DNA of 54,020 nt from contig JASJCI010000020.1 in assembly GCA_030066085.1 (NCBI GenBank), positions 1 to 54,020 of the forward strand, in the 5' to 3' direction. Source of the stretch: Gammaproteobacteria bacterium (GTDB taxonomy: Bacteria > Pseudomonadota > Gammaproteobacteria > GCA-001735895). The first letter of the stretch is position 1. The number at the start of each line of letters is the position of its first letter. Shown one piece after another: positions 1 to 45,020 of this stretch. The notes under the pieces were generated by a model. The model saw nothing but the letters and a program-made list of their open reading frames with translations. It searched no databases and was not told where the DNA came from. The position numbers and the translations under genes are program-made.

Positions 1-67
1 CCCCGCGGTCGCGCCGCGGGGTGACAGGTGTTAACAGTGCTGTAAAAAATTATTCCGGACAGCAGTG
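1..67 (+). mobile_element. right-hand part of a miniature inverted-repeat element (MITE)
   Basis: These bases match the last third of the complete element at 45031-45255 almost base for base, including the terminal inverted repeat ending in GGACAGCAGTG at 67. The flank at 68-77 (CGCGCCAGCG) is the same target half-site as at the other copies, with one change. The window starts at the edge of the element's internal hairpin, so the left part is missing here. Confidence 0.85.
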
Positions 68-261
68 CGCGCCAGCGGGGATCTCGGGCGTCGATCCCCA
101 AAACCCCGCACCGGCGCATGCAACGCGCGCGGGCCGCCGTGCGGCAGACGGGCGATCCATCCGGCGCACGGACACGTATCCGGTTGGGGACGGGCGCACG
201 GGGTATCCAGCAAATCGTGGCCCGCAACCGGCACCCGCAGGCTTCGGAGAGAGCAACGCGC

Positions 262-768
262 ATGGATATCGAACGTTTCAACATCAGGGTCTACCTGCTG
301 CTGTTCGACGAGTACGGGGACAACCTGCTGCTGTCGGACGAGATCGTCAGGGGCGAGTACTACACCAAGTTTCCCGGCGGCGGGCTGGAATACGGCGAGG
401 GTATTCTCGATTGCCTGCAGCGCGAAGCGCGCGAGGAATTCGGCCAGCAAGTCGAAGTGCTGCGCCAGTTCCATGTCTCGGAGACTTTCCAGCGCTCGAC
501 CTTCGCCCACGAGGACCAGCTGGTCTGCATCTACTACGAGTGCCGCCTGCCGCGCGATCGCAACGGCCGCCGCCGGCCCCGCTTTCGCATCGCCGAGCGG
601 CCCTACGACTTCGTCGACTTTCGCGAGCGCGAGGAGAGCTTTCGCTGGCGCCGCCTGGACCAAATCGACGCGCTCGAACTCAGCCTGCCGCTGGATCGCG
701 AGGCACTGTCTCGCCTGCTCGACGAGCGCCGCCAGAAACACCGCCCAATCCTGAGCAAAGTGATTTAG
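262..768 (+). CDS. Nudix hydrolase
   Basis: 168-residue protein with a full Nudix box at about residues 40-62 (GGLEYGE, seven residues, then REAREEFG). Nudix enzymes hydrolyse a nucleoside diphosphate linked to another group; the box residues bind divalent metal. ATG 262 is chosen because a GGAGAGA Shine-Dalgarno lies just upstream and the next residues begin the first beta strand; the frame stays open to 118, but that extension is basic and low in complexity. It stands alone, 94 bases before the TonB receptor on the same strand. Substrate cannot be predicted from sequence. Confidence 0.85.
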   Translation: MDIERFNIRVYLLLFDEYGDNLLLSDEIVRGEYYTKFPGGGLEYGEGILDCLQREAREEFGQQVEVLRQFHVSETFQRSTFAHEDQLVCIYYECRLPRDRNGRRRPRFRIAERPYDFVDFREREESFRWRRLDQIDALELSLPLDREALSRLLDERRQKHRPILSKVI

Positions 769-862
769 TATCGCGCCATACATCCGGGACAGACCCGGCC
801 TTGCGCCCGGCGCAACGGCGATCTGTTCCTCAACTTTTGCCGAGGGTGACGGGGCTTCGTCG

Positions 863-2902
863 ATGAAGGTATCAGCAATCCGGCTGGTTTTGCTCTGCGT
901 GCTGTGCGTGACGGGTGCGGCCGGGGCCAGCGACCTCGGGCCGATCACGATTACCGCGACCCGGGTCGACAAGGACGTCGACGAGGTACCGGCGGCCATC
1001 AGCGTCGTCGGCCAGGACCAGATCCAGCTCGCTACCGAGCAGCTTGGCCTCGACGAGTCGCTCGGCGGCGTGCCCGGACTGTTCACGCTCAATCGCTATA
1101 ACTTCGCACAGGACCTGCGCGCGTCGATCCGCGGTTTCGGCGCGCGCTCGAGTTTCGGCATCCGCGGTATCAGGATCATCGTCGACGGCATTCCCGAAAC
1201 CCTGCCCGATGGCCAGGGGTCGGTCGACGGTATCGATCTCGGTTCGGCGCGCCGGATCACGGTGATCCGCGGTCCAGCCTCGTCGTTGTACGGCAATGCC
1301 TCGGGCGGCGCGATCCTGGTCGAATCGGAAAAAGGTCCGGTCGTACCCTTCGCCAGCGCACGCGTTACCAGCGGCGAATTCGGCTTCAACAACACGCAGC
1401 TGAAAACCGGCGGTGAACAGGGCCGGCTCAACTACCTGCTGAACCTGTCCGACATCACCAGCGACAACTACCGTGACCACGCCCGCTACGACAACACCCA
1501 GCTCAACGCCCGCCTCGAGACGGCGCTCGACAACGATGCTTCGCTGCTGCTCAGCCTGCACTACACCGATCAACCCCTGGCCGAGGATCCTGGCAGCCTC
1601 GATGCCGCGGCCGCCGAGGACGATCCTGAACAGGCACGTGCGCAAAACGTGATCTTCGATGCCGGCGAAGCACTGGAGCAAACCCGCATCGGCCTGCTGT
1701 ACAGGACCGGGCTCGGTAACAACCGCGAATTCGAAGCCCGCGTCTACAATACGCAGCGCGACTTCGATAACCGGTTGCCGTTCCAGGACGGCGGCTCGGT
1801 CGCGCTCGATCGCGGTTTCTACGGCGCGGGCATCAAGTACACGCTGAGCGACCAGCTGGCCGGGCGTCCGAACCGGCTGCTGCTGGGGGTGGATTACGAC
1901 CGCCAGGACGACGACCGGCGCCGTTTCGACAACCTGTCGGGCACGCGTGGCGCGCTGACCTTCGACCAGGATGAACAGGTGACCTCGCTCGGCGCCTTCC
2001 TGCAGAATGAAACAAGGCTCGACGATCGCCTCGAGCTTACCTTCGGCATTCGCTACGACGACATCGAGTTCGACGTCGACGATGCGTTCCTCGCCAACGG
2101 CGACGATTCCGGCCGGATCGATTTCGACCAGGCCAGCCCGATGGCCGGCATCAGCGCGGATCTCGGCGACGGCACCCGTGTCTACGCCACCATCTCGACC
2201 GCGTTCGAGACACCGACTACGACCGAGTTGGCCAACCCCGCCGGCGGCGGGTTCAACCAGTCGCTGGAAGCGCAGGAATCGACCAATTACGAGATCGGCC
2301 TCAAGCGCCGCAGCGGCGACCAGCGCGTCGAGCTGGCGCTGTTTCACATCGAAGTCGACAACGAGTTGACGCCGTTCGAACTGCCGTCACAGCCGGGGCG
2401 CACCTTTTTCGAAAACGCCGGTTCCTCGACCCGCGACGGGCTCGAGCTCGCCTGGCGCGGACAACTCGCCGACACGATCAGCTTCAGCACGGCCTACACC
2501 TATTCCGATTTCGAGTTCGACCGTTTCACCGATGCCGACGGTGACGTGTTCGACGGCAACCGTTTGCCGGGGATCCCGCGCGACCTGCTCTATCTCGAGC
2601 TGAACTGGTTCGCGCGCAGCGGTCTGTACGCCAGCTGGAACCTGACCTATACCGGCGAACTCTACGCCGACAACGCCAACGAAACCGAGGTCGACTCGAG
2701 CCAGGTATCGAACCTGCGGGTCGGTTACAACGGCTTTTTCGACGACTGGGAAATCGCGCCGTTCCTCGGCATCAACAACCTGTTCGACGAGAGTTACAAC
2801 AACAACATCCGCATCAACGCCTTCGGTGAGCGCTACTTCGAACCCGCGCCCGAGCGCAACGCCTACGCCGGCATCTCGATCCGCGCCCGCCTCGGTGATT
2901 AA
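863..2902 (+). CDS. TonB-dependent outer-membrane receptor
   Basis: 679 residues. A signal peptide (about residues 1-22) is followed by a TonB-box-like ITITATR and a plug domain with the typical run IRGFGARSSFGIRG, VDGIPETLPDG and RGPASSLYGNASGG. A long beta-barrel follows. The protein ends in D, not the aromatic residue usual for outer-membrane barrels, though AYAGISIRARLGD fits a final strand. Such receptors import siderophores, cobalamin or other large ligands using TonB-ExbBD energy. The plug resembles FecA-like iron-complex receptors, but no siderophore genes or Fur box were seen nearby, so the ligand is open. Confidence 0.88.
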   Translation: MKVSAIRLVLLCVLCVTGAAGASDLGPITITATRVDKDVDEVPAAISVVGQDQIQLATEQLGLDESLGGVPGLFTLNRYNFAQDLRASIRGFGARSSFGIRGIRIIVDGIPETLPDGQGSVDGIDLGSARRITVIRGPASSLYGNASGGAILVESEKGPVVPFASARVTSGEFGFNNTQLKTGGEQGRLNYLLNLSDITSDNYRDHARYDNTQLNARLETALDNDASLLLSLHYTDQPLAEDPGSLDAAAAEDDPEQARAQNVIFDAGEALEQTRIGLLYRTGLGNNREFEARVYNTQRDFDNRLPFQDGGSVALDRGFYGAGIKYTLSDQLAGRPNRLLLGVDYDRQDDDRRRFDNLSGTRGALTFDQDEQVTSLGAFLQNETRLDDRLELTFGIRYDDIEFDVDDAFLANGDDSGRIDFDQASPMAGISADLGDGTRVYATISTAFETPTTTELANPAGGGFNQSLEAQESTNYEIGLKRRSGDQRVELALFHIEVDNELTPFELPSQPGRTFFENAGSSTRDGLELAWRGQLADTISFSTAYTYSDFEFDRFTDADGDVFDGNRLPGIPRDLLYLELNWFARSGLYASWNLTYTGELYADNANETEVDSSQVSNLRVGYNGFFDDWEIAPFLGINNLFDESYNNNIRINAFGERYFEPAPERNAYAGISIRARLGD

Positions 2903-30380: not shown

Positions 30381-30382
30381 CG

Positions 30383-31675
30383 TTAGCGTCTCCCAATAGT
30401 CGAATAAGATTCGGGCCAGTGCAACCCGAATACGACGGTTTCACCCGGTTCGAGTTCGATTTGCTGCCAGCTGTGGTTCGCGTCCGCGCGCAGCGATCCG
30501 TCCAGCAGCAGCTGCAGGTCGTGTAACCCGGGCTCGAGCTCGAGCCGGGTGACCAGGATTTCCTGCGGCAGCGTGTACCAGGCGCGCGTGTCGGCCTGTT
30601 CGCTCAGCACGGCGAGGACGTTCAGCGCGAAACCGATCAGCGGCTGCTCCTCGGCGGTTTCGTCCACCACGCGGTCCTTGACCGCGACGCGCGCGACGGT
30701 GCGGGCAATGATCCCCGGCATCTCGTCGTCCAGCGCGGCCCGGGCATGCTGCTCGAGATCGGCGAACAGCTCGGAATCGTTGGCGGCGCGGTCGCTGGCC
30801 AGCATGACGCTGTAGACGCGCGTGTAGCGCCGCTCGTAAAACGGCGTGGAAATGCGGTGCATGCGGCCGTCACCGGGCGACTGCGCCAGGATTTCGTGGC
30901 TGTGCAGGCGCGGGATCAGGCCGTTGAACAGGATCGCGACCGCGTGCGCCTGCTGGCGGAATACCTGCTGGGTCGGCCAGCTGACGAGGGCGAACTCTTC
31001 GTCGTAGAGACTGTGCTCCTCGGCGCGGCCGAGGTAATCGGTCAGGCGCAGCAGGTCCTGCTGCAGTATTCCCGGAATCGCGCTTCCGCGCTCGCTGTAG
31101 GCCTCGTACGCCTTGCGGTAGGCAATCAGCGCATTATCGGGTTCCTGGTTGAATTCGAACACCAGGCCGGACAGGTAGCGCGCGAACGGCAGCCTGAAAT
31201 CCTCTTCCTGCTTGAATAACTCGTCCAGCTGCAGGACCTCGACGCGAGCGCTGTCGTATTGCCGCAGCTGCAGGTAGTTGAGCGCCTTGAAGCAATGTAC
31301 CAGCGCGCGCTCGAAGGTCCGCGGCAGGTACTTGCGCATCGCGTCGTTGATCGTTACCGCCGCGGCCTGCTCGCCGATGCTGATTGCATCGAGTTCGTCG
31401 ATGACATCCTTGGCCTGTTCGAAGGCGTCGTTACTGGCCTCGAACTGCTGCTGCATGCGCAACAGCATGGCCTTGTCGAGCAGGTTTATGGCTTCGTTGC
31501 GCGAGCTGCCGCGGCGCAACTCCACCACTTCCAGCGCCTCGGCGGTCAGGTTGTTGCTGAGGAAATGATCCAGGTCGGCTCTCTGGTAACCGATACCGGT
31601 TACGCAGGCCGCCTGGCTCAGCACCATGCCGGCCACGACCAGCGCCGCCAGCGGCTTCGGGCCCGTACAGCTCAT
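30383..31675 (-). CDS. COG3014-family lipoprotein
   Basis: 430 residues, lipobox LSQAAC near residue 22. All-helical TPR-like first half (residues 50-260: AINLLDKAMLLRMQQQFEASNDAFEQA, ALNYLQLRQYDSARVEVLQLDELF) followed by a beta-rich C-terminal domain ending in RLELEPGLHDLQLLLDGS and QIELEPGETVVFGLHW. This is the COG3014 family that often sits beside lpoB and LPP20 genes in Vibrio and Shewanella relatives. No ribosome-binding site is evident at ATG 31675, nine bases after the lpoB stop, so it probably depends on translational coupling. Confidence 0.78.
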   Translation of the reverse strand: MSCTGPKPLAALVVAGMVLSQAACVTGIGYQRADLDHFLSNNLTAEALEVVELRRGSSRNEAINLLDKAMLLRMQQQFEASNDAFEQAKDVIDELDAISIGEQAAAVTINDAMRKYLPRTFERALVHCFKALNYLQLRQYDSARVEVLQLDELFKQEEDFRLPFARYLSGLVFEFNQEPDNALIAYRKAYEAYSERGSAIPGILQQDLLRLTDYLGRAEEHSLYDEEFALVSWPTQQVFRQQAHAVAILFNGLIPRLHSHEILAQSPGDGRMHRISTPFYERRYTRVYSVMLASDRAANDSELFADLEQHARAALDDEMPGIIARTVARVAVKDRVVDETAEEQPLIGFALNVLAVLSEQADTRAWYTLPQEILVTRLELEPGLHDLQLLLDGSLRADANHSWQQIELEPGETVVFGLHWPESYSTIGRR

Positions 31676-31684
31676 GCGGCATGC

Positions 31685-32290
31685 TTACCAGCGAATCGAG
31701 TTCTTCTTGACGAACTTCTTGATCTTCTTTTGCCCGGCCCAGACCTTGCGGTTGTCCGCCAGGCTGATCAGCGACAGGTCGACCTGGTAAAAACGGACCT
31801 GCTCCTTGCCCTCGGTATCGAGGATGGTGTTGATCGCGCCCTGGAGCATGAAATCGGCGCCGAGTTCCTCCCCCATGCGCTTGACGGTTTCGGCGCTGGC
31901 GTTCAGTTCCTGGTCCTGGCGTTCCTCGCGGATCTGGTCGCGCTCGACCTTCGACGCGACGAACTGCACGCCGCCGGAATTGAGCAACTCGCGCTCGATG
32001 TCGCCGACGAAGGTAGCCACGTTGATGTGTTCGTGGCTCAGGTTGCGCACCTGGCCGACGATCACGGCGGGCAGGTTACCCGTTTCGTTGATGAAGTTAT
32101 CCAGCCACGGGCGCGCGAGCGCATCGCGCACCATTTCCTCGGACACCAGGCGCGAATCGGTATCGTTCCATTCGCCGCTGAGATCACGGGTTTCGTCGAC
32201 CTCGATACGCTCGACGCGGGTGGCGCAGGCGGACAGTGCCAGGCTGAAACACAGGGTGACGGCCAGCGCGGCCAGCGGAAACCGGTTCAT
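31685..32290 (-). CDS. lpoB: penicillin-binding protein activator
   Basis: 201 residues, lipobox LALSAC. LpoB is an outer-membrane lipoprotein that reaches through the peptidoglycan to stimulate PBP1b. WNDTDSRLVSEEMVRDALARPW, PAVIVGQVRNLSHEHIN, FVGDIERELLNSGGVQFV and LGADFMLQGAINTI match the family well. Its ATG overlaps the stop of the upstream LPP20 gene as ATGA. The short linker before the globular domain is like that of non-enteric LpoB proteins. Confidence 0.88.
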   Translation of the reverse strand: MNRFPLAALAVTLCFSLALSACATRVERIEVDETRDLSGEWNDTDSRLVSEEMVRDALARPWLDNFINETGNLPAVIVGQVRNLSHEHINVATFVGDIERELLNSGGVQFVASKVERDQIREERQDQELNASAETVKRMGEELGADFMLQGAINTILDTEGKEQVRFYQVDLSLISLADNRKVWAGQKKIKKFVKKNSIRW

Positions 32291-32850
32291 TGCGCGCCTC
32301 CCGTCATGCGGTCGAAGATCGATTCGCCTTCGCTGGCGAGAAAATCGCGCAGCGCGGGACTCATCTCCATCGCCGTGTCGAGCGTTTTTTGCACGTGCTT
32401 GATGTCGAGTTCGGCCAGCGACCAGATCGTGCCGCTATCCTCGTCGCGCCAGCGGCCGATGATCTTCGCGCCGCTGAGGTTGATCTGGGTCAGGCTGTCG
32501 ATCTGGCGGTTCACCGCCTGCTCGCTCAACTGCGTTTCGCCGTCGCCGGCGGCGGCGCTGTAATCGTTGGAGACGACCTTCATGTAGGAACTGAAAATAC
32601 GCGCCAGTTCGGCGCGCGCGCGATCGTCGGCGGTGGTTGTCTGCAGCGACAGGTCACCCATCGGTGGCGCCGAGCCAATACCATGGAACAGGCGCCCGTC
32701 ACGATCCTTGAGCATCTGGTTGCCTTCGTTGACCCAGTCGGGCGCACCGTCGATATGCAGGTCGCTTTCGACCGCGGTCTTGCTGCTGCAACCCGTGATC
32801 AACAGTAATCCGAGCGCAACAGAACCGAGGTAAAAACGTAATCTGGTCAT
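32287..32850 (-). CDS. LPP20-family lipoprotein, first gene of the lpoB operon
   Basis: 187 residues from ATG 32850, with AGGAAA before it. Lipobox LLITGCS. PDWVNEGNQML, RLFHGIGSAPPMGD, TADDRARAELARIFSSYM and a late SLAELDIKHVQKTLDTA form the LPP20 core. It is about half the size of the paralogue at 29364-30380 and lacks that protein's second half. Confidence 0.82.
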   Translation of the reverse strand: MTRLRFYLGSVALGLLLITGCSSKTAVESDLHIDGAPDWVNEGNQMLKDRDGRLFHGIGSAPPMGDLSLQTTTADDRARAELARIFSSYMKVVSNDYSAAAGDGETQLSEQAVNRQIDSLTQINLSGAKIIGRWRDEDSGTIWSLAELDIKHVQKTLDTAMEMSPALRDFLASEGESIFDRMTGGAQ

Positions 32851-33333
32851 GTCGTGTTTCCTCACGTTCGGGTTGTACCTGTGAGTTTACTCCATTCCTG
32901 CAGGCTTGTACTCCGGGGGTGCGGGAACGGGTTCAATTATCTCGCAGGCGCGCAGGAAGAGCGCCAGGCTATTAGTCGCTCCGCTTGCTTTTTGGTTCGC
33001 CAGGAATATCGCATGACGGTCTCGGCGACGTTCTGCCGCAATGCCATGGCCCGCCATTTCGGGCCCGCCCGCTCCCGAGGGGACTGGCGGAAAGCAGTGA
33101 CGAGAGCATAGAGGACGAACCCTCTTTTATCGGGGACGGACCCCGTTTTTTTCGGCCGCTGATGGCGCGGGAATGACGCATGACACGGGAGTGAGGACGG
33201 CAGTGTAAATGACCGGTTGGTAGTGCAATTACGGGCTGAACGGCAATATCGCGCGCCATTTTTAGGGTTTTTTCGGCGGGCTTAATTTAAAATGGCGGGT
33301 TCCGTCAACCCGAATCCGATACGCATCCTGCAA
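32851..33333. other. intergenic region with a REP unit
   Basis: 483 bases between the lpoB operon (minus) and the cyanophycin operon (plus). A GGGGACGGACCCC palindrome with a run of seven T is at 33133-33150. The right end (33253-33290) is A/T-rich (TTTTTAGGGTTTTTTCGG, then CTTAATTTAAAATGG) and probably holds the iadA promoter. Open frames through the region contain the repeat and are not credible genes. Confidence 0.5.
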
Positions 33334-34497
33334 ATGTTCGAACTGATTACCAACGCCAGCGTCTATGCACCGGAGCCGCTCGGTATACGCCACCTGCTAA
33401 TCTGTGCCGGCAAGATCGCCTGGATCGGCGAGCAGGTGCCGCAACTCGACGACAGCCTCGAGGTCGAGGTCACCGATCTCGACGGCGCCCGCCTGCTGCC
33501 CGGGTTTATCGATGCCCACACTCACCTGACCGGCGGCGGCGGCGAGGCCGGGCCGTCGACGCGGGCACCGTCGCTGGCGCTGTCGCAGATTACGCGCGCC
33601 GGCGTCACCAGCGTCGTCGGCCTGCTCGGCACCGATGATCTCACGCGCACGCCGCAGGACCTGGTCACACAGGCCATGGGCCTGCGCGAAGAGGGATTGT
33701 CCGCCTGGTGTTATACCGGCGGCTACCACGTGCCGGTGGTTACCCTGACCGGCTCGGTACGCAGCGACATCGTCAACCTCGAGCCGGTGATCGGCGTCGG
33801 CGAGGTCGCGCTCAGCGATCATCGTTCTAGCCAGCCGACCCGCGACGAAATCCTGCGGCTCGCGAGCGAAGCGCACGTCGCCGGCCTGATGACCGGCAAG
33901 GCCGGTATCGTGCACTTCCACCTCGGCGACGGCGAGCGTGGCCTGGCGATGATCCGCGAATGCCTCGAGCTCGCCGAGATCCCGCCGCGGGTATTCAATC
34001 CGACCCACGTCAACCGCAACAAGCCGCTGTTCGAGGAAGCCTGCGAACTGAGCGGCCGTGGCTGCAACGTCGACCTGACCGCGTTCCCGGCCGATTCGAG
34101 CGACGAGGGCTGGTCCGCCGAGGATGCGGTCGAGCGCTACCTCGAGCAGGGTTTCGACCGCGGCAAGCTCACCATCAGTTCCGACGGCGGCGGCTGCCTG
34201 CCGCGCTTCGACGCCCAGGGGCAACTGCTCAAGATGGGCTTCGCCAGCTGCCAGGCGATGGCCGACTGTTTCACCAACCTGCTCGCGCGGGACCTGCCGC
34301 TGGAGACGATTCTGCCTTTCATGACCAGCAACGTCGCGCAGCTGCTCAAGCTGCCGGGCAAGGGTCGTATCGCGCGCGGCGGCGATGCCGACCTGGTGGT
34401 GGTCGACCGGCACAACCGCATCGACGGCGTCATGGCGCGCGGCGCATGGCACGTCAGGGACGGCCGCCAGCTCAGGAGCGGCCTGTTCGAAGAATAA
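33334..34497 (+). CDS. iadA: isoaspartyl dipeptidase
   Basis: 387 residues, amidohydrolase fold. Cleaves beta-aspartyl dipeptides, here most likely the beta-Asp-Arg released by cyanophycinase. Metal ligands: HxH in DAHTHLTGG near residue 66, His in VHFHLGD and in PTHVNRN, Asp in SSDGGG. In E. coli IadA a lysine before SDHRS is carbamylated and bridges the metals; here the stretch reads VGEVALSDHRSS, so a glutamate appears to replace it (from memory of the E. coli sequence). First gene of the cyanophycin operon, 16 bases before cphB. ATG 33334 is chosen on homology. Confidence 0.88.
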   Translation: MFELITNASVYAPEPLGIRHLLICAGKIAWIGEQVPQLDDSLEVEVTDLDGARLLPGFIDAHTHLTGGGGEAGPSTRAPSLALSQITRAGVTSVVGLLGTDDLTRTPQDLVTQAMGLREEGLSAWCYTGGYHVPVVTLTGSVRSDIVNLEPVIGVGEVALSDHRSSQPTRDEILRLASEAHVAGLMTGKAGIVHFHLGDGERGLAMIRECLELAEIPPRVFNPTHVNRNKPLFEEACELSGRGCNVDLTAFPADSSDEGWSAEDAVERYLEQGFDRGKLTISSDGGGCLPRFDAQGQLLKMGFASCQAMADCFTNLLARDLPLETILPFMTSNVAQLLKLPGKGRIARGGDADLVVVDRHNRIDGVMARGAWHVRDGRQLRSGLFEE

Positions 34498-34513
34498 CGA
34501 CAACGAGTTTCCC

Positions 34514-35344
34514 ATGAGTCCATCTCCCCATATCGAAGACCAGACCCGCGGCTACGTCATACCCATCGGCGGCGCCGAGGAGCGCACCGGCTCGATGCGC
34601 GTACTGCGGCGCTTCGTCAAGCTCAGCGGCGGCCGCAAGGCGCGCATCGTGATCATCCCGACGGCGTCGATGCTGGCCGACACCGGCGACCGCTATATCG
34701 AGGTCTTCGAGAAAATCGGCGTCGAAAGCGCGCTCTCGCTGCCGATTACCGAGCGTGCCGACGCCGCCCGCCCGGACTACATCGAGAAGCTCGACGGCGC
34801 CACCGGCATCTTCATGACCGGCGGCAACCAGCTGCGCCTGTCGACCATTCTCGGCGGCACCCTGGTAGCGCAGAAGGTCAGGCGCGCGAACGCGGCCGGC
34901 GTGCATGTCGCCGGCACCTCCGCCGGTGCCGCGATCATGCCCGAACACATGATTGCCGGCGGCTCGATGGGGCTGTCGGCGCGCGCCGACGGCGTCAACC
35001 TCGCGCCCGGCCTCGGCCTCACCAACGCGCTGATCATCGACCAGCACTTCAGCCAGCGCGACCGCCTCGGCCGCCTGCTGACCGCGGTTTCCTACAACCC
35101 GTTTCTGCTCGGGGTCGGCATCGACGAAGACACCGCGATCTTCATTCCGCCCAACCGCGTGTTCGAGGTCGAGGGCAGCGGCAACGTCACCATCATCGAC
35201 CCCGAAGACCTGAGCTACTCGTCGATGGACCGCGCGCGGAAAAACGAGTCGCTCAGCCTGCTCGACCTCAAACTGCACATCCTGTCGAAGGGCTGCCGCT
35301 TCGATATCCACGACCGCAAGCCCTTTCCGCCGAAAAAGAGATAA
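34514..35344 (+). CDS. cphB: cyanophycinase
   Basis: 276 residues, serine-type exopeptidase that cuts cyanophycin into beta-Asp-Arg dipeptides. YVIPIGGAEE opens the fold, MTGGNQLRL lies near residue 100, and AGTSAGAAIM near residue 138 carries the nucleophile Ser. FFSQRDRLGRLL appears as QHFSQRDRLGRLL near 176. No signal peptide, so this is the intracellular CphB type and not the secreted CphE. Five bases before cphA; the product feeds iadA. Confidence 0.93.
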   Translation: MSPSPHIEDQTRGYVIPIGGAEERTGSMRVLRRFVKLSGGRKARIVIIPTASMLADTGDRYIEVFEKIGVESALSLPITERADAARPDYIEKLDGATGIFMTGGNQLRLSTILGGTLVAQKVRRANAAGVHVAGTSAGAAIMPEHMIAGGSMGLSARADGVNLAPGLGLTNALIIDQHFSQRDRLGRLLTAVSYNPFLLGVGIDEDTAIFIPPNRVFEVEGSGNVTIIDPEDLSYSSMDRARKNESLSLLDLKLHILSKGCRFDIHDRKPFPPKKR

Positions 35345-35349
35345 CCAAG

Positions 35350-38154
35350 ATGAAGATAACCGCCACCAACGTCTACGTAGGCCCCAGTATTTACGCCAAC
35401 TTCCCGGTCATCCGCATGGTGCTCGACATCGGCGTGCTGGTGGACTGGCCCTCGGTCAAGTGCGGCCCGGAGTTCACCGACGGCCTGCAAAAAGCCCTGC
35501 CCAGCCTCGCCGAACACGGCTGCTCCTACCGCGAAGCGGGCGGTTTCATCCGCCGCCTGACCGAGGACGACGGCACCTGGATGGGTCACATCATGGAGCA
35601 CGTCGCGCTCGAGATTCAGAACATGGCCGGCTCCAACGTCTCTTTCGGCAAGACTCGTACCACCGGCGAGCCCGGCATGTACAACATGATCTACGCCTAC
35701 AAGCAGCGCGACGCCGGTATCGAAGCCGGCCACCTCGCGCTGCGGCTGCTGATGCACCTGCTGCCCGAGCACCTGCAGCAGCAGGTCGAGTACAAGATCG
35801 ATCCCGGGTTCGATTTTGCCGCCGAGCTCGAGGACTTCGTGCGCCGCACGCAGCGCCGCGAGTTCGGCCCCAGCACGCAGTCGCTGGTGGACGCCGCCGA
35901 GGCGCGGCAAATCCCCTGGCTGCGGCTCAACGACTACAGCCTGGTTCAGTTCGGCCACGGCAAGTACCAGAAGCGCATCCAGGCTACCGTGACCTCGGAC
36001 ACCGGCACCATCGCCACCTCGCTCGCGAGCGACAAGGAGGGCACCCACCGGATCCTGCGCGACATGGGCCTGCCGGTGCCTAAACAGGCCATGTTCAGCA
36101 GCGAGGACGACGCGGTCAGGGCAGTCGAGCGCATGGGTTATCCCGTCGTGATCAAGCCGCTGGACGCCAACCACGGGCGCGGCATCAGCATCAATCTGAC
36201 CACCGAGGAGCAGGTGCGCGAAGCCTTCCACGTGGCGCTCAAACAGGGCCGCTCGCGCCATGTCATCGCCGAGAGTTTCGTCAGCGGCTACGACCACCGC
36301 ATGCTGGTGATCGACAACGAACTGGTCGCGGTGGCGAAACGCGTGCCCGGCCATGTCGTCGGTGACGGCAAATCGACCATCGAACAGCTGGTCGACATCG
36401 TCAACGCCGACCCCCGGCGCGGTATCGGCCACGAAAAGGTGCTGACCCGGCTCGAGCTCGATGGCCAGGCCAAACGCCTGCTGCAGGACGCCGGTTACGA
36501 TGAAAACACCGTGCTGGCGAAGGACGAGGTCTTTTTCCTGCGCTCGACCGCGAACCTGTCCACCGGCGGCACCGCGATCGACCTGACCGACGTGGTGCAC
36601 CCGGACAACCGCGAGATGGCGGTACGCGCGGTGCGCGCGGTCGGGCTGGATATCGGCGGTGTCGATTTCATCACCGACGACATCACCTATTCCTACAAGG
36701 ACGTCGGCGGCGCGATCGTCGAGGTCAACGCCGGCCCCGGCTTCCGCATGCACGTCGCGCCGAGCGAGGGCGAACCGCGCGACGTCGCCGGCAAGGTGAT
36801 CGACATGCTTTACCCGCCGGGCACGCCGAGCCGCATCCCGGTGGCGGCGATCACCGGCACCAACGGCAAGACCACGACCACGCGCATGCTGGCGCATATC
36901 ATGAAGACCAGCGGCCACACGGTCGGCATGACCTCGACCGGCGGCATCCACGTCGACGGCCGCATCACGGTCAAGGGCGACATGACCGGACCGCAGTCGG
37001 CGCAAATCGTGCTGCGCGACCCGACCATCGATTTCGCCGTGCTCGAAACCGCGCGCGGCGGCATCCTGCGGGCCGGCCTCGGCTTCCGCGAGTGTGACGT
37101 CTCGGCCTGCCTCAACATCAGCGCCGACCATCTCGGCCTCGGCGGTATCGATACCCTCGAGCAACTGGCCAAGGTCAAGGAGACCGTGGTGCGGGTCGCC
37201 AACGATACCGCGGTGTTGAACGCCGACGACAAGCTGTGCCTGAAGATGGCCGAGCATACGCGCGCGAAGCACCTGTGCTACGTGACCATGGACCCGACCC
37301 ACGGCCTCGTGCGCGAGCACATCCGCGCCAACGGGCGCGCGGTGGTGCTCGAACAGGGCATCAACGGCGACATGATCACGATCTACGACAACGGCGCGCA
37401 TATCCCGCTGCTGTGGACCCACCTGATCCCGGCGACGATCGAGGGCAAGGCCATGCACAACGTGCAAAACGCGATGTTCGCCGCGGCCATGGCCTTCAGC
37501 TTCGGCAAGGACCTGGACGAAATCCGCAACGGTCTGCGCACCTTCGACACGTCGTTCTTCCAGAGCCCCGGGCGCACCAATATCTACAACGAGCATCCGT
37601 TCAAGGTCATTCTCGATTACGCGCACAACCCGGCCGGCTTCCGCGCGATGGCCGAGCTGGCCGAACGGCTCGAGCCCGCCGGGCGGCGCACCGTCGTGTT
37701 CTCGGTACCCGGCGACCGCCGCGACGAGGATATCCGCGAATCGGTCGAGGCCTGCCTGCCGCAGTTCACCGATTTCGTGTGCAAGGCCGACACCCATCGG
37801 CGCGGCCGCGGCGAGGACGAGGTGCCGCAGCTGGCGCGCAAGTTCCTGCTCAAAGCCGGTGTCGACGACAGCCGCATCACCGTGATCGCCGACGAGGCCG
37901 CCGCGATCGACCACGCGCTCAACAATGCCGAGGAAGGCGACCTGCTGGTGATCACGGCCGACGATCTCGCGCGCAGCTGGAAGCAGATCATCAACCTCAA
38001 CAGCGACAAGGTGGAGAAAAAGGAAACCATCCCCGGGACCAAGGTGTTCGTGCCCGAGCGGGCCAAGCGTTTCGTGCTCGACCAGGACGAGGAACTCATC
38101 ATCGACGAGCGCGGCGTTCGCCTGGCGAGCAGCGAACCCGAAGACGCCGATTAG
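35350..38154 (+). CDS. cphA: cyanophycin synthetase
   Basis: 934 residues, slightly longer than usual. Builds the Asp-Arg polymer cyanophycin from aspartate, arginine and ATP. N-terminal domain 1-160; ATP-grasp domain about 165-480 (YPVVIKPLDANHGRGISINL, EVNAGPGFRMHVAP), which adds aspartate to the backbone; Mur-ligase domain from about 495 with P-loop ITGTNGKTTTTRML near 500 and DYAHNPAGFRAM near 757, which adds arginine. All motifs are intact. Middle of the iadA-cphB-cphA-paralogue operon. The polymer stores nitrogen and carbon in the cytoplasm. Confidence 0.95.
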   Translation: MKITATNVYVGPSIYANFPVIRMVLDIGVLVDWPSVKCGPEFTDGLQKALPSLAEHGCSYREAGGFIRRLTEDDGTWMGHIMEHVALEIQNMAGSNVSFGKTRTTGEPGMYNMIYAYKQRDAGIEAGHLALRLLMHLLPEHLQQQVEYKIDPGFDFAAELEDFVRRTQRREFGPSTQSLVDAAEARQIPWLRLNDYSLVQFGHGKYQKRIQATVTSDTGTIATSLASDKEGTHRILRDMGLPVPKQAMFSSEDDAVRAVERMGYPVVIKPLDANHGRGISINLTTEEQVREAFHVALKQGRSRHVIAESFVSGYDHRMLVIDNELVAVAKRVPGHVVGDGKSTIEQLVDIVNADPRRGIGHEKVLTRLELDGQAKRLLQDAGYDENTVLAKDEVFFLRSTANLSTGGTAIDLTDVVHPDNREMAVRAVRAVGLDIGGVDFITDDITYSYKDVGGAIVEVNAGPGFRMHVAPSEGEPRDVAGKVIDMLYPPGTPSRIPVAAITGTNGKTTTTRMLAHIMKTSGHTVGMTSTGGIHVDGRITVKGDMTGPQSAQIVLRDPTIDFAVLETARGGILRAGLGFRECDVSACLNISADHLGLGGIDTLEQLAKVKETVVRVANDTAVLNADDKLCLKMAEHTRAKHLCYVTMDPTHGLVREHIRANGRAVVLEQGINGDMITIYDNGAHIPLLWTHLIPATIEGKAMHNVQNAMFAAAMAFSFGKDLDEIRNGLRTFDTSFFQSPGRTNIYNEHPFKVILDYAHNPAGFRAMAELAERLEPAGRRTVVFSVPGDRRDEDIRESVEACLPQFTDFVCKADTHRRGRGEDEVPQLARKFLLKAGVDDSRITVIADEAAAIDHALNNAEEGDLLVITADDLARSWKQIINLNSDKVEKKETIPGTKVFVPERAKRFVLDQDEELIIDERGVRLASSEPEDAD

Positions 38155-38176: not shown

Positions 38177-39892
38177 ATGGATATTCCGCAACTCGACTGC
38201 GAGCGCCTGATCGTCGACAGTTGCCGCCGGCTGACCGGGCCGTCGCTGGTATGGAGCCACGGCGGCGCGATTCTCGACGTGCTGATCGACGAGGTCGACC
38301 CCGACGCACTGCTCGAGTGCTGGTACCGCCAGGTCGACGCGCTGCTGCAAAAGGTGGGCTGGAGCGCGCCGGAACTGACCCATCGCCGCTTCGACAACGG
38401 CGTCAGCCTGCTGCTGGCGGCACCTGTGGACCAGCTTTACAGCGCGACCAGCGTGCTCCAAACCGCGTGGTACTTCTGCGCCTGCGAACTGCTCGGGATA
38501 ACGCCCGAAGCCGGCGATGCGCTGACCCGGTCGATCATCGACGAGATGCGCGGCGAACGAAACCCGGGCCTGGTTGCACTGCAGCGCGCTGCCGCCGAAC
38601 ACGGGGTCGACTGCCTCGTCGATGACGACAGGGTTACGATCGGCCACGGCAACGGCAGCCGCAGTTTTCAGATGGACGAGCTGCCGGACCCGCAACAGCT
38701 CGACTGGGCCGCGCTGCACGACATCCCGGTGGCGCTGGTCACCGGTACCAACGGCAAGTCGACCAGCGTGCGCCTGCTCGACGCGATCGCACGCGCGGCC
38801 GGCCGGGTTTCCGGCATAACCTCGACCGACTTCGTCCGTGTCGGCGACGACCTGCTCGACCGCGGCGACTGCTCGGGGCCGGCCAGCGCGCGCCTGTTGC
38901 TGCGCGACCCGCGCCTCGAGGTCGCCTTCCTCGAGGTTGCGCGCGGCGGCATTCTGCGCCGCGGCCTGGCGGTGCGGCGCGCGGCGGCGGCGCTGGTCAC
39001 CAACGTCGCCCGGGATCACCTCGGCCAGTACGGCGTCAACAGCATGGCGGCACTGACCGCGACCAAGTTCGCGGTAGCCAAGGGCCTCGGCGAGACCGGC
39101 TTACTGGTGACCAATGCCGACGACGCCGGCATCGTCGACTATCTCGCGCAGCACCCGCAGCAAAACCTGTGCTGGTTCGCCATCGATGCGGACAACCCGG
39201 TGATCCGGCAACAGCGGGCACACAACGGCCCGTGCTGTTTTACCGAGGGAGGCGACATCCTGCGTTTCGACGGCGAGGCGCTGCATCGCATCTGCGCGAT
39301 CGACGCGGTGCCGATGACGCTCGGCGGCGCCGCGCGGCACAACGTGCAAAATGCGCTCGGCGCGGTCGGCGTGGCCAGCGCGATGGGATTCAGCGACGCC
39401 GACATTCGCGCCGGGCTCGAGCATTTCCACAGCGACGAAAGCGACAACCCGGGGCGCATGAATATCTTCGCGCTGCAAAACTCGGCGCGGGTGATCGTCG
39501 ATTTCGCGCACAACGCGCACGGGGTCGCGGCCGTGGTCGATACCGCCAGGCGCATGCCGGCCGCGCGCAAATGGGCGCTGTTCGGCTCGGCCGGCGACCG
39601 CTCCGACGCCGAGATCGCGGCCATCGCCAGCGGCATTTGCGCGATCGAACCGGACCGCGTCGTCATTACCGAACTCGAGCACTACCTGCGCGGCCGCAAG
39701 CCCGGCGAGGTCAGCACGATCATGCAGCGCGCCTGCCTCGAACACGGCCTCGCGCCCGAACAAATACACATCGCCGACTCCCCGCTGGCCGGCGCCCGCT
39801 TCGCGCTCGAGCAAATGCACGCCGACGACCTCGGCCTGTTCCTCGTACTGTCGGAGCGTGAACAGGTCGTCGAGCTGCTCAATTCAATGTGA
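38177..39892 (+). CDS. CphA-like Mur ligase lacking the ATP-grasp core
   Basis: 571 residues, 22 bases after cphA. From about residue 183 it is a complete Mur ligase: VTGTNGKSTSVRLL, EVARGGILRRGLAV, NVARDHLGQYG, MTLGGAARHNVQNALGAV, VDFAHNAHGVAAVV. Just before, NPGLVALQRAAAEHGVDCLV then TIGHGNGSRSF matches the segment of CphA that leads into ATP-grasp (SLVDAAEARQIPWLRL then FGHGKYQKR). About 300 residues of ATP-grasp are then missing. Residues 1-125 do not resemble the CphA N-terminal domain. The reverse of cyanobacterial CphA2, which keeps ATP-grasp. Role unknown: perhaps an arginine- or other amino-acid-adding partner of CphA. Confidence 0.85.
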   Translation: MDIPQLDCERLIVDSCRRLTGPSLVWSHGGAILDVLIDEVDPDALLECWYRQVDALLQKVGWSAPELTHRRFDNGVSLLLAAPVDQLYSATSVLQTAWYFCACELLGITPEAGDALTRSIIDEMRGERNPGLVALQRAAAEHGVDCLVDDDRVTIGHGNGSRSFQMDELPDPQQLDWAALHDIPVALVTGTNGKSTSVRLLDAIARAAGRVSGITSTDFVRVGDDLLDRGDCSGPASARLLLRDPRLEVAFLEVARGGILRRGLAVRRAAAALVTNVARDHLGQYGVNSMAALTATKFAVAKGLGETGLLVTNADDAGIVDYLAQHPQQNLCWFAIDADNPVIRQQRAHNGPCCFTEGGDILRFDGEALHRICAIDAVPMTLGGAARHNVQNALGAVGVASAMGFSDADIRAGLEHFHSDESDNPGRMNIFALQNSARVIVDFAHNAHGVAAVVDTARRMPAARKWALFGSAGDRSDAEIAAIASGICAIEPDRVVITELEHYLRGRKPGEVSTIMQRACLEHGLAPEQIHIADSPLAGARFALEQMHADDLGLFLVLSEREQVVELLNSM

Positions 39893-40447: not shown

Positions 40448-41500
40448 TTACAGCCGCTGGCCGCTGGCCTTGTCGAACAGGTGCACGTTTTCGGCGTCGA
40501 CGGCGAGCCGGAGCGGCTGCTCGGCGTGCGGCAGCTGGTGTACGCCGGACAGGCTGGCCGTCAGCGGCAACCCGCTCTCCCTGAGGCTGCCGTGCAGCAG
40601 GGTGTTGGCGCCGAGCGGCTCGGCCAGGCCGGCGAGCATCTCCAGCGGGCCGTCGTCAGCGGGTAGCAGGTGTTCCGGCCGAATGCCGACCGCCACTTCG
40701 CCCGTGTAATCACCGTCGTGAGAGGCTAAAACCTGGTCGCCGATCCTGACCTGGCCGCCCTCGAGCCGGCCGTCGACGACGTTCATCGCCGGACTGCCGA
40801 TAAACTGCGCGGCGAATAACGTCTGCGGTCTCTGGTAAACCTCGAGCGGGCTGCCGATTTGCTCGGCGACGCCGTCGTTCATGACGATCATGCGATCCGC
40901 CATGGTCATCGCTTCGACCTGGTCGTGGGTCACGTACAGCGCGGTGACGCCGAGCTTCGACTGCAGCTCCTTGATCTCGAGGCGCATCTGCACCCTGAGC
41001 TTGGCATCGAGGTTCGACAGCGGTTCGTCGAACAGGAACACGGCCGGTTCGCGCACGATCGCGCGCCCCATCGCGACCCGCTGGCGCTGACCGCCCGACA
41101 GCTGGCGCGGCTTGCGATCGAGATATTCTTCCAGCTGCAGTAGCTTCGCCGCCTCGGCGACCTTGGCTTCGATCTCCGCTTTCGGCACCTTCGCGATCTT
41201 GAGCCCGTAAGCCATGTTCTGCCGCACCGACATGTGCGGGTAGAGCGCGTAGTTCTGGAACACCATCGCGATGTTGCGCTCCATCGGTTCCTTGTCGTTG
41301 ACGCGCTCGCCGCCGATCCGGATCTCGCCGCTGCTGACCGACTCGAGCCCGGCGACCATGCGCAGCAGGGTCGACTTGCCGCAGCCGCTCGGGCCGACGA
41401 TGACGATGAACTCGCCGTCGGCGATGTCGATGCTGACACCGTGAATCACCTGGTTCTTGCCGAAGCGCTTCTCGACGTTGTTCAGTTCTACGGTCGCCAT
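40448..41500 (-). CDS. ugpC: sn-glycerol-3-phosphate ABC transporter ATPase
   Basis: 350 residues, MalK/UgpC type. Walker A GPSGCGKST near 38, Q-loop VFQNYALYPH, signature LSGGQRQRVAMGRA near 134, Walker B VFLFDEPLSNLD near 154, His switch YVTHDQ near 189. A C-terminal TOBE-type regulatory domain runs from about 235. Cytoplasmic energising subunit, last gene of ugpBAEC, one base after ugpE. Confidence 0.88.
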   Translation of the reverse strand: MATVELNNVEKRFGKNQVIHGVSIDIADGEFIVIVGPSGCGKSTLLRMVAGLESVSSGEIRIGGERVNDKEPMERNIAMVFQNYALYPHMSVRQNMAYGLKIAKVPKAEIEAKVAEAAKLLQLEEYLDRKPRQLSGGQRQRVAMGRAIVREPAVFLFDEPLSNLDAKLRVQMRLEIKELQSKLGVTALYVTHDQVEAMTMADRMIVMNDGVAEQIGSPLEVYQRPQTLFAAQFIGSPAMNVVDGRLEGGQVRIGDQVLASHDGDYTGEVAVGIRPEHLLPADDGPLEMLAGLAEPLGANTLLHGSLRESGLPLTASLSGVHQLPHAEQPLRLAVDAENVHLFDKASGQRL

Positions 41501-41501
41501 G

Positions 41502-42371
41502 TTATTTCTCGCTGTCGATCATGCCGCGGATAAAAAGCTTCTGCATCGAGATCACGACGATCACCGGCGGGATCATCGCCAGGATGGAGGTCGCCATGAT
41601 CACCGGCCAGTCCGCGGTATCGTCACCCGACGGGAACATCTGCTTGATGCCCATGACGATGGTGTTCATTTCGACGTCGGTGGTGATCAGCAGCGGCCAC
41701 AGGTACTGGTTCCAGCCGTAGATGAACAGGATCACGAACAGCGCGGCGATGTTGGTGCGGCTCATCGGCAGGATGATGTCGATGAAAAAGCGCATCGGGC
41801 TCGCGCCGTCGACGCGCGCGGCCTCGGCCAGCTCGTCGGGAATCGTCATGAAGAACTGGCGGAACAGGAAGGTCGCCGTGGCGGATGCGATCAACGGAAA
41901 GATCAGCCCGGCGTAGCTGTTCAGCAGGCCGAAGCCGGCGATGACCTCGTAGGTCGGCACGATACGCACCTCCACCGGCAGCATCAGGGTAATGAAGATC
42001 AGCCAGAAAAAAGTCGTGCGCCCGGGAAAACGAAAATACACGATCGCAAACGCCGACAGTAGCGAAATGATGATCTTGCCGATCGCGATACCGAGCGCCA
42101 TGACCAGCGAGTTGATCAGCATGGTGTAGACCGGCACGTTGACGCCGGACAGCAGCGCCTTCTTGTAGTTATCGATGAAATGATCGCCCGGCAGCAGCGG
42201 CATCGGCGGGCTGACGATTTCCGGCTGGGTCACGGTCGAGGCGACGAACGCGAGCCAGATCGGGAAAAAGATCACCAGCACGCCGAGGATCATGAACAGG
42301 TGCGTCAGCCACAGTGCGTGCCCGCGTCGCTCCACCATGCCGGCTGCCGGCTCGTGTTGCGCCGCGGCCAT
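41502..42371 (-). CDS. ugpE: sn-glycerol-3-phosphate ABC transporter permease
   Basis: 289 residues, six membrane segments. The ATPase-contact EAA loop is [23 protein letters not shown] near residues 185-207. [19 protein letters not shown] after the first segment is typical of UgpE. Its ATG overlaps the ugpA stop by one base (TGATG). Confidence 0.88.
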
Positions 42372-43252
42372 CAGTAATGCACCCGTTTCTCGACGAACTT
42401 GAACTGCAGCACGGTGAGTCCGCCGACCAGCAGCAGCAGGATCACCGACTGCGCCGCGGACGAGCCCAGGTCCTGGCCGACGAAACCGTCGGCGAACACC
42501 TTGTACACCAGGATCGTGGTCGCCTGCTGCGGGCCGCCGGCGGTAATCGTGTGGATTACGCCGAAGGTCTCGAAGAAGGCGTAGACGATGTTGACCACCA
42601 GCAGGAAGAACGTGGTCGGCGACAGCAGCGGCAGCACGATGGTGAAGAAGCGCCGCCAGAAGCTGGCACCGTCGATCGCGGCCGCTTCGATCACCGAGCG
42701 CGGCACGGCCTGCAGCGCGGCGAAGAAGAACAGGAAGTTGTAGCTCACGCGCCCCCAGGCGGACGCGACCACGACCAACCCCATCGCCTCACCCTCGTTC
42801 AGCACGTGATTCCAGTCGTAGCCCAGCTGGCCGAGATACCAGGACACCACGCCGACGCGGGTGTTGAACATGAACAGCCACAGCACGCCCGCCACCGCGG
42901 GCGCCACCGCGTAGGGCCAGATCAGCAGCGTGCGGTAGGTGCCGGCGCCCTTGATCAGGCGATCGGCCAGCACCGCGAGGAACAGCGCCGGCACCATCGA
43001 CACCAGCGTCACCAGCAGCGAAAAGATGCCGGTGGTCAGGAAAGACGCGCGGTAGAACTCGTCGAACAGCAGGAATTCGAAGTTACCGAGACCGACGAAC
43101 TTGGTCGACAGGCCGAACGGGTCGGGAATGAACAGCGACTGCCAGATCGCCTGCCCCGCGGGATAAAAGAAGAACACCGCGGAAATGGCGAGCTGCGGAA
43201 AGACCAGCGCCAGCGGCAGCAGCCAGCCCTTGAAGGTGACCAGTTTCTCCAT
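42371..43252 (-). CDS. ugpA: sn-glycerol-3-phosphate ABC transporter permease
   Basis: 293 residues, six membrane segments. [19 protein letters not shown] matches the E. coli UgpA DPFG...FVGLDNF run, and the EAA loop is [22 protein letters not shown] near 208-229. Separated from ugpB by 209 bases that hold a mobile-looking inverted-repeat element, so it may be less expressed than ugpB or need a second promoter. Confidence 0.88.
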
Positions 43253-43317
43253 CGCGAGCTTAACGCCGGACCGATGGCGCCGCTACGACGCCATTGGCCC
43301 GTGATGCCTCGACCCGA

Positions 43318-43465
43318 CTAGCAGCTTTTTGAAATTCGCTCAGGTGAGTGCGAGACAAGGCAGAAGCGGGCAAAAAAGCGCAGTTTACACGCAGTAAACG
43401 AGCATTTTGAGCCCGATTCTAACGCCGTATCGCGCCAGCTGAGCAGAATTTCAACACGCTGCTAG
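43318..43465. mobile_element. 148-bp inverted-repeat element in the ugp operon
   Basis: Left end CTAGCAGCTTTTTGAAATTC (43318-43337, extending to CAG at 43343) and right end, read inverted, CTAGCAGCGTGTTGAAATTC (43465-43446), pair over about 26 bases with few mismatches. The inside holds GTTTAC-ACGCA-GTAAAC (43383-43399). It has no ORF. Similar intergenic elements ending in a CAACAGCCTGCTA-like run occur in marine Gammaproteobacteria (from memory). Its right terminus supplies the TAG stop of ugpB. Confidence 0.65.
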
Positions 43466-44778
43466 CGGTTGGCCTGCTCGAACCGGCGCAGCAGCCGGTT
43501 ACCGCGTTCGACCGCGCTGTCCATCGCGGCCTGCGCGCTCTTGTCGCCGGACCACACGGCTTCGAGCTCTTCGTCGATGATACCGCGAATCTGGTCGAAG
43601 GATCCGAGCCGCAGTCCCTTGGAGTTCGCCGTGGGTTGCTTCGCCGTCATCTGGATCACCGCGATATCGGTGCCCGGATTCTCGTCGTAAAAGCCCTGCG
43701 CGCGGGTCTTGGCGCCGGCCGCGGTGGTAATCGGCAGGTAACCGGTATCCTGGTGCCACTTGGCCTGGATATCGGTCGACGACAGGAAGTTCAGGTAAGC
43801 GGCCACGGCCTCGTATTCGGCGTCACTGTGACCCGTCATGACCCACAGCGACGCGCCGCCGATGATCGTGTTTTGCGGAGCACCGGCTACGCCGTCCCAG
43901 TAGGGCAGCGGCCGCACGCCGAAATCGAACTGGGCTTCGGCCTTGATCCCGGCGTAACCCGCCGAGCTCTCGGTGAACAGTGCACATTCGCCGCCGCGGA
44001 AATTCGCGCCACCCTCGTTGCGCCGGCCGGCGTAGATGAACTTGCCTTCCTTCGCCCAGTCACCCATGGTTTGCACGTGCTTGACCTGCACCGGGCCGTT
44101 GAACGCGAGCTCGGTATCGAGGCCGGCGAAGCCGTTGTCCTTGGAGGCGAACGGAATATTGTGGTAGGCGGAGAAGTTCTCGAGGTGGATCCAGCTCTGC
44201 CACGCGGTGGTCAGCGGGCACTCGTGGCCCGATGCCTTGAGCTTGTCGAGCACGGCGCCGACCTGCTGCCAGGTCGACATGTCCGTGTCCGGATCGATAC
44301 CGGCGGCCTTCAGCGCATCGCGGTTGACCCACAGCACCGGGGTCGACGAGTTGAACGGCAGCGACAGCATCTTGCCGTCGGTGGTGGTGTAGTAGCCCTT
44401 GACCGAGCCGATATAGGCGTCGGGATTGAAGCCGCCGCCGGCGCCGCCCATGACCTTGTGTACCGGGTTGATGGCGCCGCTGGCGGCCATCATGGTCGCG
44501 GTGCCGACCTCGAATACCATCAGGATATGCGGTTGCTCGCTGGCGCGAAACGCGGCGATGCCGGCGTTGAGCGTCTCCGAGTAGTTACCCTTGTGCGTGG
44601 CAACGACCCGGTATTCGCTCTGCAGCGAGTTGAACGTATTGACCTGCTCGGCTACCAGCTCGCCGAGCCGCCCGGTAAAGGCGTGCCAGAACTGGATTTC
44701 TGTCGCGGCCAGGGTCACCGCGGGCGACGCGAGTAAAACGCCGGCCAGCAGCAAACCATGAATTTTTTGTCTGATCAT
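43462..44778 (-). CDS. ugpB: sn-glycerol-3-phosphate-binding protein
   Basis: 438 residues from ATG 44778, with GGAGGA upstream; signal peptide ending TLAA-TE. It is very close to E. coli UgpB: IQFWHAFTGRLGELV, THKGNYSETLNAGIAAFRAS, FEVGTATMMAASGAI, LPFNSSTPVLWVNRDALK, WIHLENFSAYHNIPFASKDN, IIGGASLWVM, WHQDTGYLPIT and GLRLGSFDQIR. Binds glycerol-3-phosphate or glycerophosphodiesters in the periplasm. The stop codon TAG (43464-43462) lies in the end of the 148-bp repeat element, so the original C-terminus may have been altered. Confidence 0.93.
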   Translation of the reverse strand: MIRQKIHGLLLAGVLLASPAVTLAATEIQFWHAFTGRLGELVAEQVNTFNSLQSEYRVVATHKGNYSETLNAGIAAFRASEQPHILMVFEVGTATMMAASGAINPVHKVMGGAGGGFNPDAYIGSVKGYYTTTDGKMLSLPFNSSTPVLWVNRDALKAAGIDPDTDMSTWQQVGAVLDKLKASGHECPLTTAWQSWIHLENFSAYHNIPFASKDNGFAGLDTELAFNGPVQVKHVQTMGDWAKEGKFIYAGRRNEGGANFRGGECALFTESSAGYAGIKAEAQFDFGVRPLPYWDGVAGAPQNTIIGGASLWVMTGHSDAEYEAVAAYLNFLSSTDIQAKWHQDTGYLPITTAAGAKTRAQGFYDENPGTDIAVIQMTAKQPTANSKGLRLGSFDQIRGIIDEELEAVWSGDKSAQAAMDSAVERGNRLLRRFEQANR

Positions 44779-45020
44779 CGGTTGTCCTCCGGTTGTAGCT
44801 ATGCGGTCCCCGGGCGGGGACCTGTTTCCCGAATCAATGTTATCTGCACCCGCGTATGGGCACTCTTTATTACTGCAGATCCAGGTTACGAAAGTATATC
44901 GAAATTCGGGAGACAGTATACCGAATGCCCAGATCCCGTCGTCATCCCCGCACACACTTCCGTCAGTCCCCATAACTTGCGTAATCCCCATGCCCCGTCA
45001 TCCCCATGCCCCGTCATCCC

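Follow-up and report, generated by a model that had tools for sequence, protein, structure and literature searches.

A CphA paralogue without the ATP-grasp core, linked to one clade of cyanophycin synthetases and predicted to act as a side-chain ligase

Cyanophycin is a nitrogen-storage polymer whose synthesis is commonly attributed to a single, self-sufficient enzyme. In this enzyme, CphA1, the ATP-grasp (G) domain adds Asp to the backbone, and a primer-making site, Cx19HxxEH, is found in most, not all, CphA1s. In CphA2 the ATP-grasp site is the working site; the M domain is shortened and has no working M site. Small molecules serve as acceptors for Mur ligases. A 'cphA prime' of the kind described here could be mentioned in Fuser and Steinbuchel 2007, Ziegler 2002 and Sharon 2021.

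According to the accessible parts of PMC9262961, the N-domain HxxEH of SuCphA1 makes primers, a double mutation of the D-H pair inactivates its M domain, and the N-domain motif is also absent from CphA2; the accessible part of PMC10206079 reports that CphA2 repolymerises beta-Asp-Arg using a single active site. In the literature searched, which took in few subscription papers, we found no description of a CphA paralogue lacking ATP-grasp, and none is given in the accessible parts of PMC9262961, PMC9427784, PMC8050183, PMC3829189, PMC10206079 and PMC10687191. The genes counted in PMC10206079, as far as accessible, are those for cphA1, cyanophycinase and isoaspartyl dipeptidase, and its main text never uses the term 'Mur ligase'. 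The accessible part of PMC10687191 notes that some sludge genomes have cphA in two copies.

The gene studied here, which we call X, has in common with CphA1 (PDB 7lg5/7lgq, 7wac, 7lgm, 7lgn) the N fold and an M domain with all tested catalytic residues; unlike CphA1, it has no ATP-grasp core, no HxxEH and no C-terminal tail, and the donor-side residues of its lid are changed. Like cyanobacterial CphA2 (PDB 7ta5, 8fxh), X is a paralogue related to CphA1 and carries a single active site for synthesis, and the CphA2 N-domain fold matches its residues 1-180 (Z 10.1 with 7ta5); however, the domain content of X is the opposite of that of CphA2. With MurE (UDP-MurNAc tripeptide synthetase) it shares ligase chemistry and the M fold, but X has ARGG and DxAHN as in CphA; the corresponding motifs of E. 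coli MurE are SSHG and DYAHT.

Gene X and its domain architecture

The window, that is, the whole stretch of 54,020 nucleotides that was analysed, belongs to a gammaproteobacterial contig (JASJCI010000020.1). X (38177..39892, + strand) encodes 571 aa, with an ATG at 38177 and a stop codon at 39890-39892, at the coordinates given in the original prediction. It is the last gene of a tight + strand run, iadA-cphB-cphA-X, with intergenic gaps of 10, 5 and 22 bases. The run starts with iadA, for a beta-aspartyl (isoaspartyl) dipeptidase (33292..34497, + strand; TIGR01975, 414 bits against a cut-off of 331), followed by cphB, for cyanophycinase (34508..35344, + strand; TIGR02069, 256 bits against a cut-off of 126.6), and cphA, which encodes a complete CphA1 of 934 aa, the partner of X (35350..38154, + strand), with HxxEH in the N domain, NHGRG in the G domain and GTNGKT in the M domain. 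Other matches to X in the source genome are confined to the CphA M domain and one distant place on another contig (25% identity). Upstream of iadA, on the - strand (29364-32865), lies a row of lipoprotein-like ORFs of 338, 430, 201 and 192 aa whose signal-like starts contain a cysteine, and downstream of X, also on the - strand (40448-44991), there is an ABC importer set, made up of an ATPase with an OB_MalK match, two permease-like ORFs and one binding-protein-like ORF.

The original prediction had described X as a CphA paralogue devoid of the ATP-grasp core and adjacent to an intact cphA, and profile searches and structure bear this out. In Pfam, X matches only Mur_ligase_M (188-400) and Mur_ligase_C (426-554), with no match to the ATP-grasp and Cyanophycin_syn models; the N, ATP-grasp and Mur models all match the neighbouring CphA. 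The best NCBIfam model for X is TIGR02068 (cyanophycin synthetase), at 341.6 bits and below the cut-off of 850, and this match covers the Mur part only (X 181-569 on model 477-859). Scores against the murE and folC models are 97.8 bits (cut-off 257.3) and 41 bits (cut-off 162.65). The AlphaFold2 model of X (mean pLDDT 92.6, alignment of 21 relatives) superposes on the CphA1 chain 7lgq_A with Z 36.7 and rmsd 3.1, 551 of 571 residues being aligned (11..571 on 1..869). In the comparison with solved structures CphA1 takes all of the first eight rows, and MurE reaches at best Z 27.5 over 345 residues.

We regard it as next to impossible that X is a MurE/FolC-type enzyme unrelated to CphA, or a functionless duplicate in decay. 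Its Pfam assignment as a Mur ligase agrees with such an origin; however, X scores far higher against CphA1 models and structures than against those of MurE, CphA1 chains come first by sequence and by structure, and decay is contradicted by the dN/dS values given below and by conservation across Gamma- and Alphaproteobacteria.

Residues 1-180 folded alone (pLDDT 93.3) matched 7wae_C with Z 11.8 and 7lgq_A with Z 11.1 (158 residues aligned, chain 1..208); the first 11 rows were all CphA1 or CphA2 (Z 11.8-7.6), and the next row had Z 7.0 on 80 residues. Along the gene, all on the + strand, this part comprises a CphA-type N domain without HxxEH (residues 11-106, 38207..38494), recognised in the fold obtained alone, and a remnant of the start of the G domain (residues 113-165, 38513..38671) that ends in IGHGNGSRSF, beyond which the core is absent. 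In the model the remnant is formed by the elements H113-127, H130-141, E145-148, E152-156 and E161-165. Then follow the M core (residues 182-424, 38720..39448), with the P-loop GTNGKS, E253, D280-H281, K297 and N392, and the M lid (residues 425-571, 39449..39889), with R427, D442, H445, D474-R475, E499 and R505. A diverged ATP-grasp hidden in residues 1-180 is ruled out by the model elements and by the matches to CphA N domains; it was found neither in the whole model nor in the part folded alone.

Alignment with the window CphA places FGHGKYQKRI opposite IGHGNGSRSF, so that GHGNGSRSF had rightly been recognised as the GHGKYQKR run of CphA. The missing block, put at about 300 residues in the original prediction, corresponds to ~211-493 of the window CphA and is bridged by a short linker. 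In addition, the N domain is trimmed (~CphA 73-112 is missing, including HxxEH), and X has no counterpart of the C-terminal tail of CphA. Sequence identity in the N domain is only ~10%, so the exact internal boundaries are uncertain. As modelled, X so consists of the CphA N domain and the first G elements as far as the GHG motif, which a short linker joins to the M domain, and the predicted structure confirms that the ATP-grasp block was removed and did not diverge. In one X homologue (locus L040, genome G617), positions 108 and 117 of the N-domain profile are separated by an insertion of ~40-48 residues.

Distribution of X and its link to one CphA1 clade

When 84,980 species were scanned, each represented by one genome, 25 X loci were found, 46-77% identical, so that X is a real family and not a chance ORF. 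Its hosts include gammaproteobacterial MAGs, among them the Olavius algarvensis Gamma 3 endosymbiont, as well as Ruegeria, Aliiroseovarius, Amylibacter and others; Mesorhizobium denitrificans also carries X, and the family spans Gamma- and Alphaproteobacteria. A cphA lies directly upstream in the same direction at 21 of the 25 loci, and each of the remaining four starts at a contig edge or close to one; the architecture thus recurs beside cphA at 21/21 loci whose contig reaches that far. On named plasmids the relatives of X stand beside cphA and cphB under the NCBI name 'Mur ligase family protein', an annotation in which the gene lies hidden.

In a survey of 27 loci around X, made with a simple gene caller that antisense ORFs in GC-rich loci confused, cphA/X, cphB and iadA were the only recurrent families that are candidate operon members; two further families recur, one an antisense frame of cphA and the other ABC-transporter-type ATPases at varying places. 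Genes for saccharopine and aldehyde dehydrogenases occur upstream in Ruegeria sp. AD91A; they were not seen as a conserved feature and were therefore set aside as a clue to the substrate of X.

In whole-genome samples X occurs in 8/369 genomes of the class, 5/398 of the phylum and 2/210 of the class of G439, where CphA-like N-G segments (E <= 1e-60) are present in 18, 29 and 9 genomes, respectively. When the 52 CphA-bearing genomes were each counted once, X was present, adjoining cphA, in 13/13 genomes with a CphA1 at least 60% identical to that of the window, and the N-domain profile, which a very diverged X could escape, detected it in 0/39 genomes with a less similar CphA; related genomes in this count are not independent.

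The partner CphA1s have HxxEH in 31/31 cases checked, an intact M P-loop in 32/32 and NHGRG in 27/27 where the G pattern matched (the pattern missed five). With all three active sites kept in its partner, X is an addition and not a replacement, and a role as substitute for a defective partner M domain is ruled out by the intact P-loops. The HxxEH motif, a metallopeptidase motif that marks the endo-cyanophycinase site, is present in 0/39 of the X-type ORFs listed, partial rows included, which disfavours the earlier suggestion that X primes synthesis. Since X lacks this site and its partners have both HxxEH and the M P-loop, X would be an extra M-type activity beside a complete synthetase.

X is under purifying selection, with dN/dS of 0.08-0.20 overall and 0.09-0.28 in the N-terminal part (six close pairs). 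In the tree, from which 11 near-duplicate rows were dropped and to which L033 and L039 were added, X is monophyletic (29 rows, SH-aLRT 99), and the partner CphA1s form a group of their own (27 rows, 100). A recent duplication of the adjacent cphA, with X and partner CphA1 as one clade, was disfavoured in an AU test (p-AU 0.016; 46 rows, quick tree), which is only indicative because of long branches; with this long-branch caveat, X looks older than the present partner clade. Over 26 pairs, distances within X and within partner CphA1 correlate (r 0.90, 0/2000 permutations), as expected for any two co-inherited genes, and X changes ~1.6 times as much as its partner.

Catalytic residues, the lid and the proposed reaction

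Conservation was counted in 33 of 35 usable X rows, leaving out L033 and L039, whose P-loop is GSNGKT; excluded beforehand were L027 (partial), L030 and L031 (duplicates of L009 and L012) and L068 (a weak match inside a CphA-locus frame). All Mur motifs had been predicted to be kept, and the tested catalytic positions are indeed invariant in 33/33 rows: K194 and T196 (P-loop Lys/Thr), E253 (Mg-binding Glu), D280 and H281 (D-H pair), K297, N392, R427 (PGR), D442 and H445 (DxAH), D474 and R475 (GDR) and R505 (RGR). We take K297 to be the carbamylated-lysine position of Mur ligases.

Such a pattern bears on the view that X is a non-catalytic regulatory or scaffold subunit in mixed oligomers with CphA1, which we rate as very improbable: an N domain kept despite its lost active site and the strict linkage to one CphA1 clade would suit a scaffold, but a scaffold has no need of 13 catalytic positions invariant in every row counted. 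X is probably an active side-chain-ligase paralogue, conserved and dedicated to one CphA1 clade.

The lid is where X departs from CphA1. Near-invariant positions were taken as those on which at least 94% of 50 CphA1 rows agree; of these, 39/48 are kept by X in the M core and 13/22 in the M lid. CphA D814 (D in 41/50 CphA1 rows) corresponds to E499, which is E in 33/33 X rows; CphA R791 (R in 50/50) to S476 (S in 29 of the 33 rows, K in 2, P in 1, R in 1); and CphA E849 to P536 in 29/33 rows. A clade-wide insertion of two residues precedes RGR, and the argument about the donor pocket rests on a sequence alignment beside this insertion. CphA D814 aligns with D413 of E. coli MurE (414 counting Met), the Asp of DNPR. 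In the accessible part of PMC3829189, the corresponding Asp-406 of S. aureus MurE, together with Glu-460, holds the Lys epsilon-amino group, and in mDAP MurE enzymes DNPR contacts the distal carboxylate. On the acceptor side, the ARGG of CphA is retained as A255, R256, G257 and G258, and E. coli MurE is without it; its retention suggests a CphA-type acceptor. We propose from these alignments that the kind of acceptor is unchanged and that the donor has changed.

Taking these residues into consideration, we infer that X may be a catalytically competent stand-alone M-type side-chain ligase working with CphA1, with a donor other than Arg or with Arg handled differently; we give this reading an even chance. 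X would act together with the complete CphA1 encoded in its own gene run; it would phosphorylate the free side-chain carboxylate of the Asp at the cyanophycin chain end with ATP and would then join the activated side chain to the alpha-amino group of an amino acid. With the ATP-grasp site gone it would be unable to extend the Asp backbone, and with the N-domain HxxEH site gone unable to make primers; what remains of the N domain could serve as a packing or polymer-guiding surface. A donor other than Arg, or a different handling of Arg, appears most likely because the lid expected to hold the donor differs from that of all CphA1s. Since the donor-side lid is the remodelled part of X, the original idea that X adds a second amino acid to the side chain agrees with the sequences. 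Repair of chains, also raised then, is conceivable. If the donor does differ, bacteria with X would make a natural cyanophycin variant, and X would be a small module for tailoring the polymer.

Plain Arg transfer would also fit the conserved chemistry. X might transfer Arg just as the M domain of CphA1 does, either as extra M capacity, needed when backbone extension outruns side-chain loading, or in repair of unmodified terminal Asp. All tested M catalytic residues are kept, as are the CphA-type ARGG and, in 33/33 rows, the candidates for binding the donor alpha-carboxylate, R475 and R505, and the Legionella and D. deserti N-M proteins described below, which keep an ordinary lid, also speak for it. 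We nevertheless find plain Arg transfer rather unlikely, since the change of D814 to E in every row, the two-residue insertion and the loss of 9/22 CphA1-invariant lid positions point to altered donor handling, and the M domain of the partner is itself intact.

Free small molecules are possible acceptors for X. As a beta-aspartyl dipeptide synthetase, X would join free Asp or another small acceptor to an amino acid, giving a starter or another metabolite. The use of small acceptors by Mur ligases would fit, as would the presence in the gene run of iadA, whose product splits beta-aspartyl dipeptides; against this stand the CphA-type acceptor-side residues retained in X and the primer-making site that the partner CphA1s themselves possess (31/31), and we judge such an activity improbable.

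Independent losses of the ATP-grasp domain

Besides X, two plasmid proteins combine N and M domains in one open frame, and both are named 'Mur ligase family protein' by NCBI. The first, from a Legionella adelaidensis plasmid (WP_058462805.1, L095:5440-7308), has 622 aa and no G core; it is 50% identical to the CphA N-terminal part and 60% to the M domain, keeps HxxEH, and lies next to genes for cyanophycinase and isoaspartyl peptidase; the plasmid stretch examined contains no cphA. The second, from Deinococcus deserti plasmid 3 (WP_012695043.1), has 724 aa and has lost most of the G domain. They resemble X in domain content but differ from it in their independent origin and in an ordinary CphA1-type lid (GDRR, RGR). 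In paralogues from D. taeanensis and Deinococcus KNUC1210 the G region is partly deleted and ATP-grasp patterns no longer match; the KNUC1210 copy, annotated as two adjacent coding sequences, may be broken. The Deinococcus plasmid paralogues (L098:5023-7197, L094:4735-7251 and L093:4684-7183) represent successive steps in which the G domain decays or is deleted, and they keep the M P-loop.

The tree places the proteins of Legionella, D. deserti and D. taeanensis among ordinary CphAs and apart from X, which indicates that ATP-grasp was lost with M retained at least three times (X, Legionella, Deinococcus). A conserved gene for the side-chain half, tied to one CphA1 clade and with independent look-alikes, would mean that side-chain loading is separately selectable in nature. 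More tentatively, and with doubts of our own, we suggest a mixed cyanophycin in which CphA1 adds Asp and Arg and X loads some Asp with a residue other than Arg, alongside stripping of ATP-grasp at least three times independently.

Tandem cphA pairs in L054-L063 and L073-L091, probably from betaproteobacteria, resemble half-enzymes that complement each other. In the short copies (~725-790 aa) HxxEH is kept, and so, in most of them, is an NHGRG-like G motif; the lid of the M domain and the majority of the M catalytic motifs are gone in 12/12 of those aligned, L076 retaining a P-loop-like GTHGKT. The six long copies (L057, L058, L060, L061, L062 and L091) keep the M motifs and are without HxxEH; four of the six have NQGKG in place of NHGRG.
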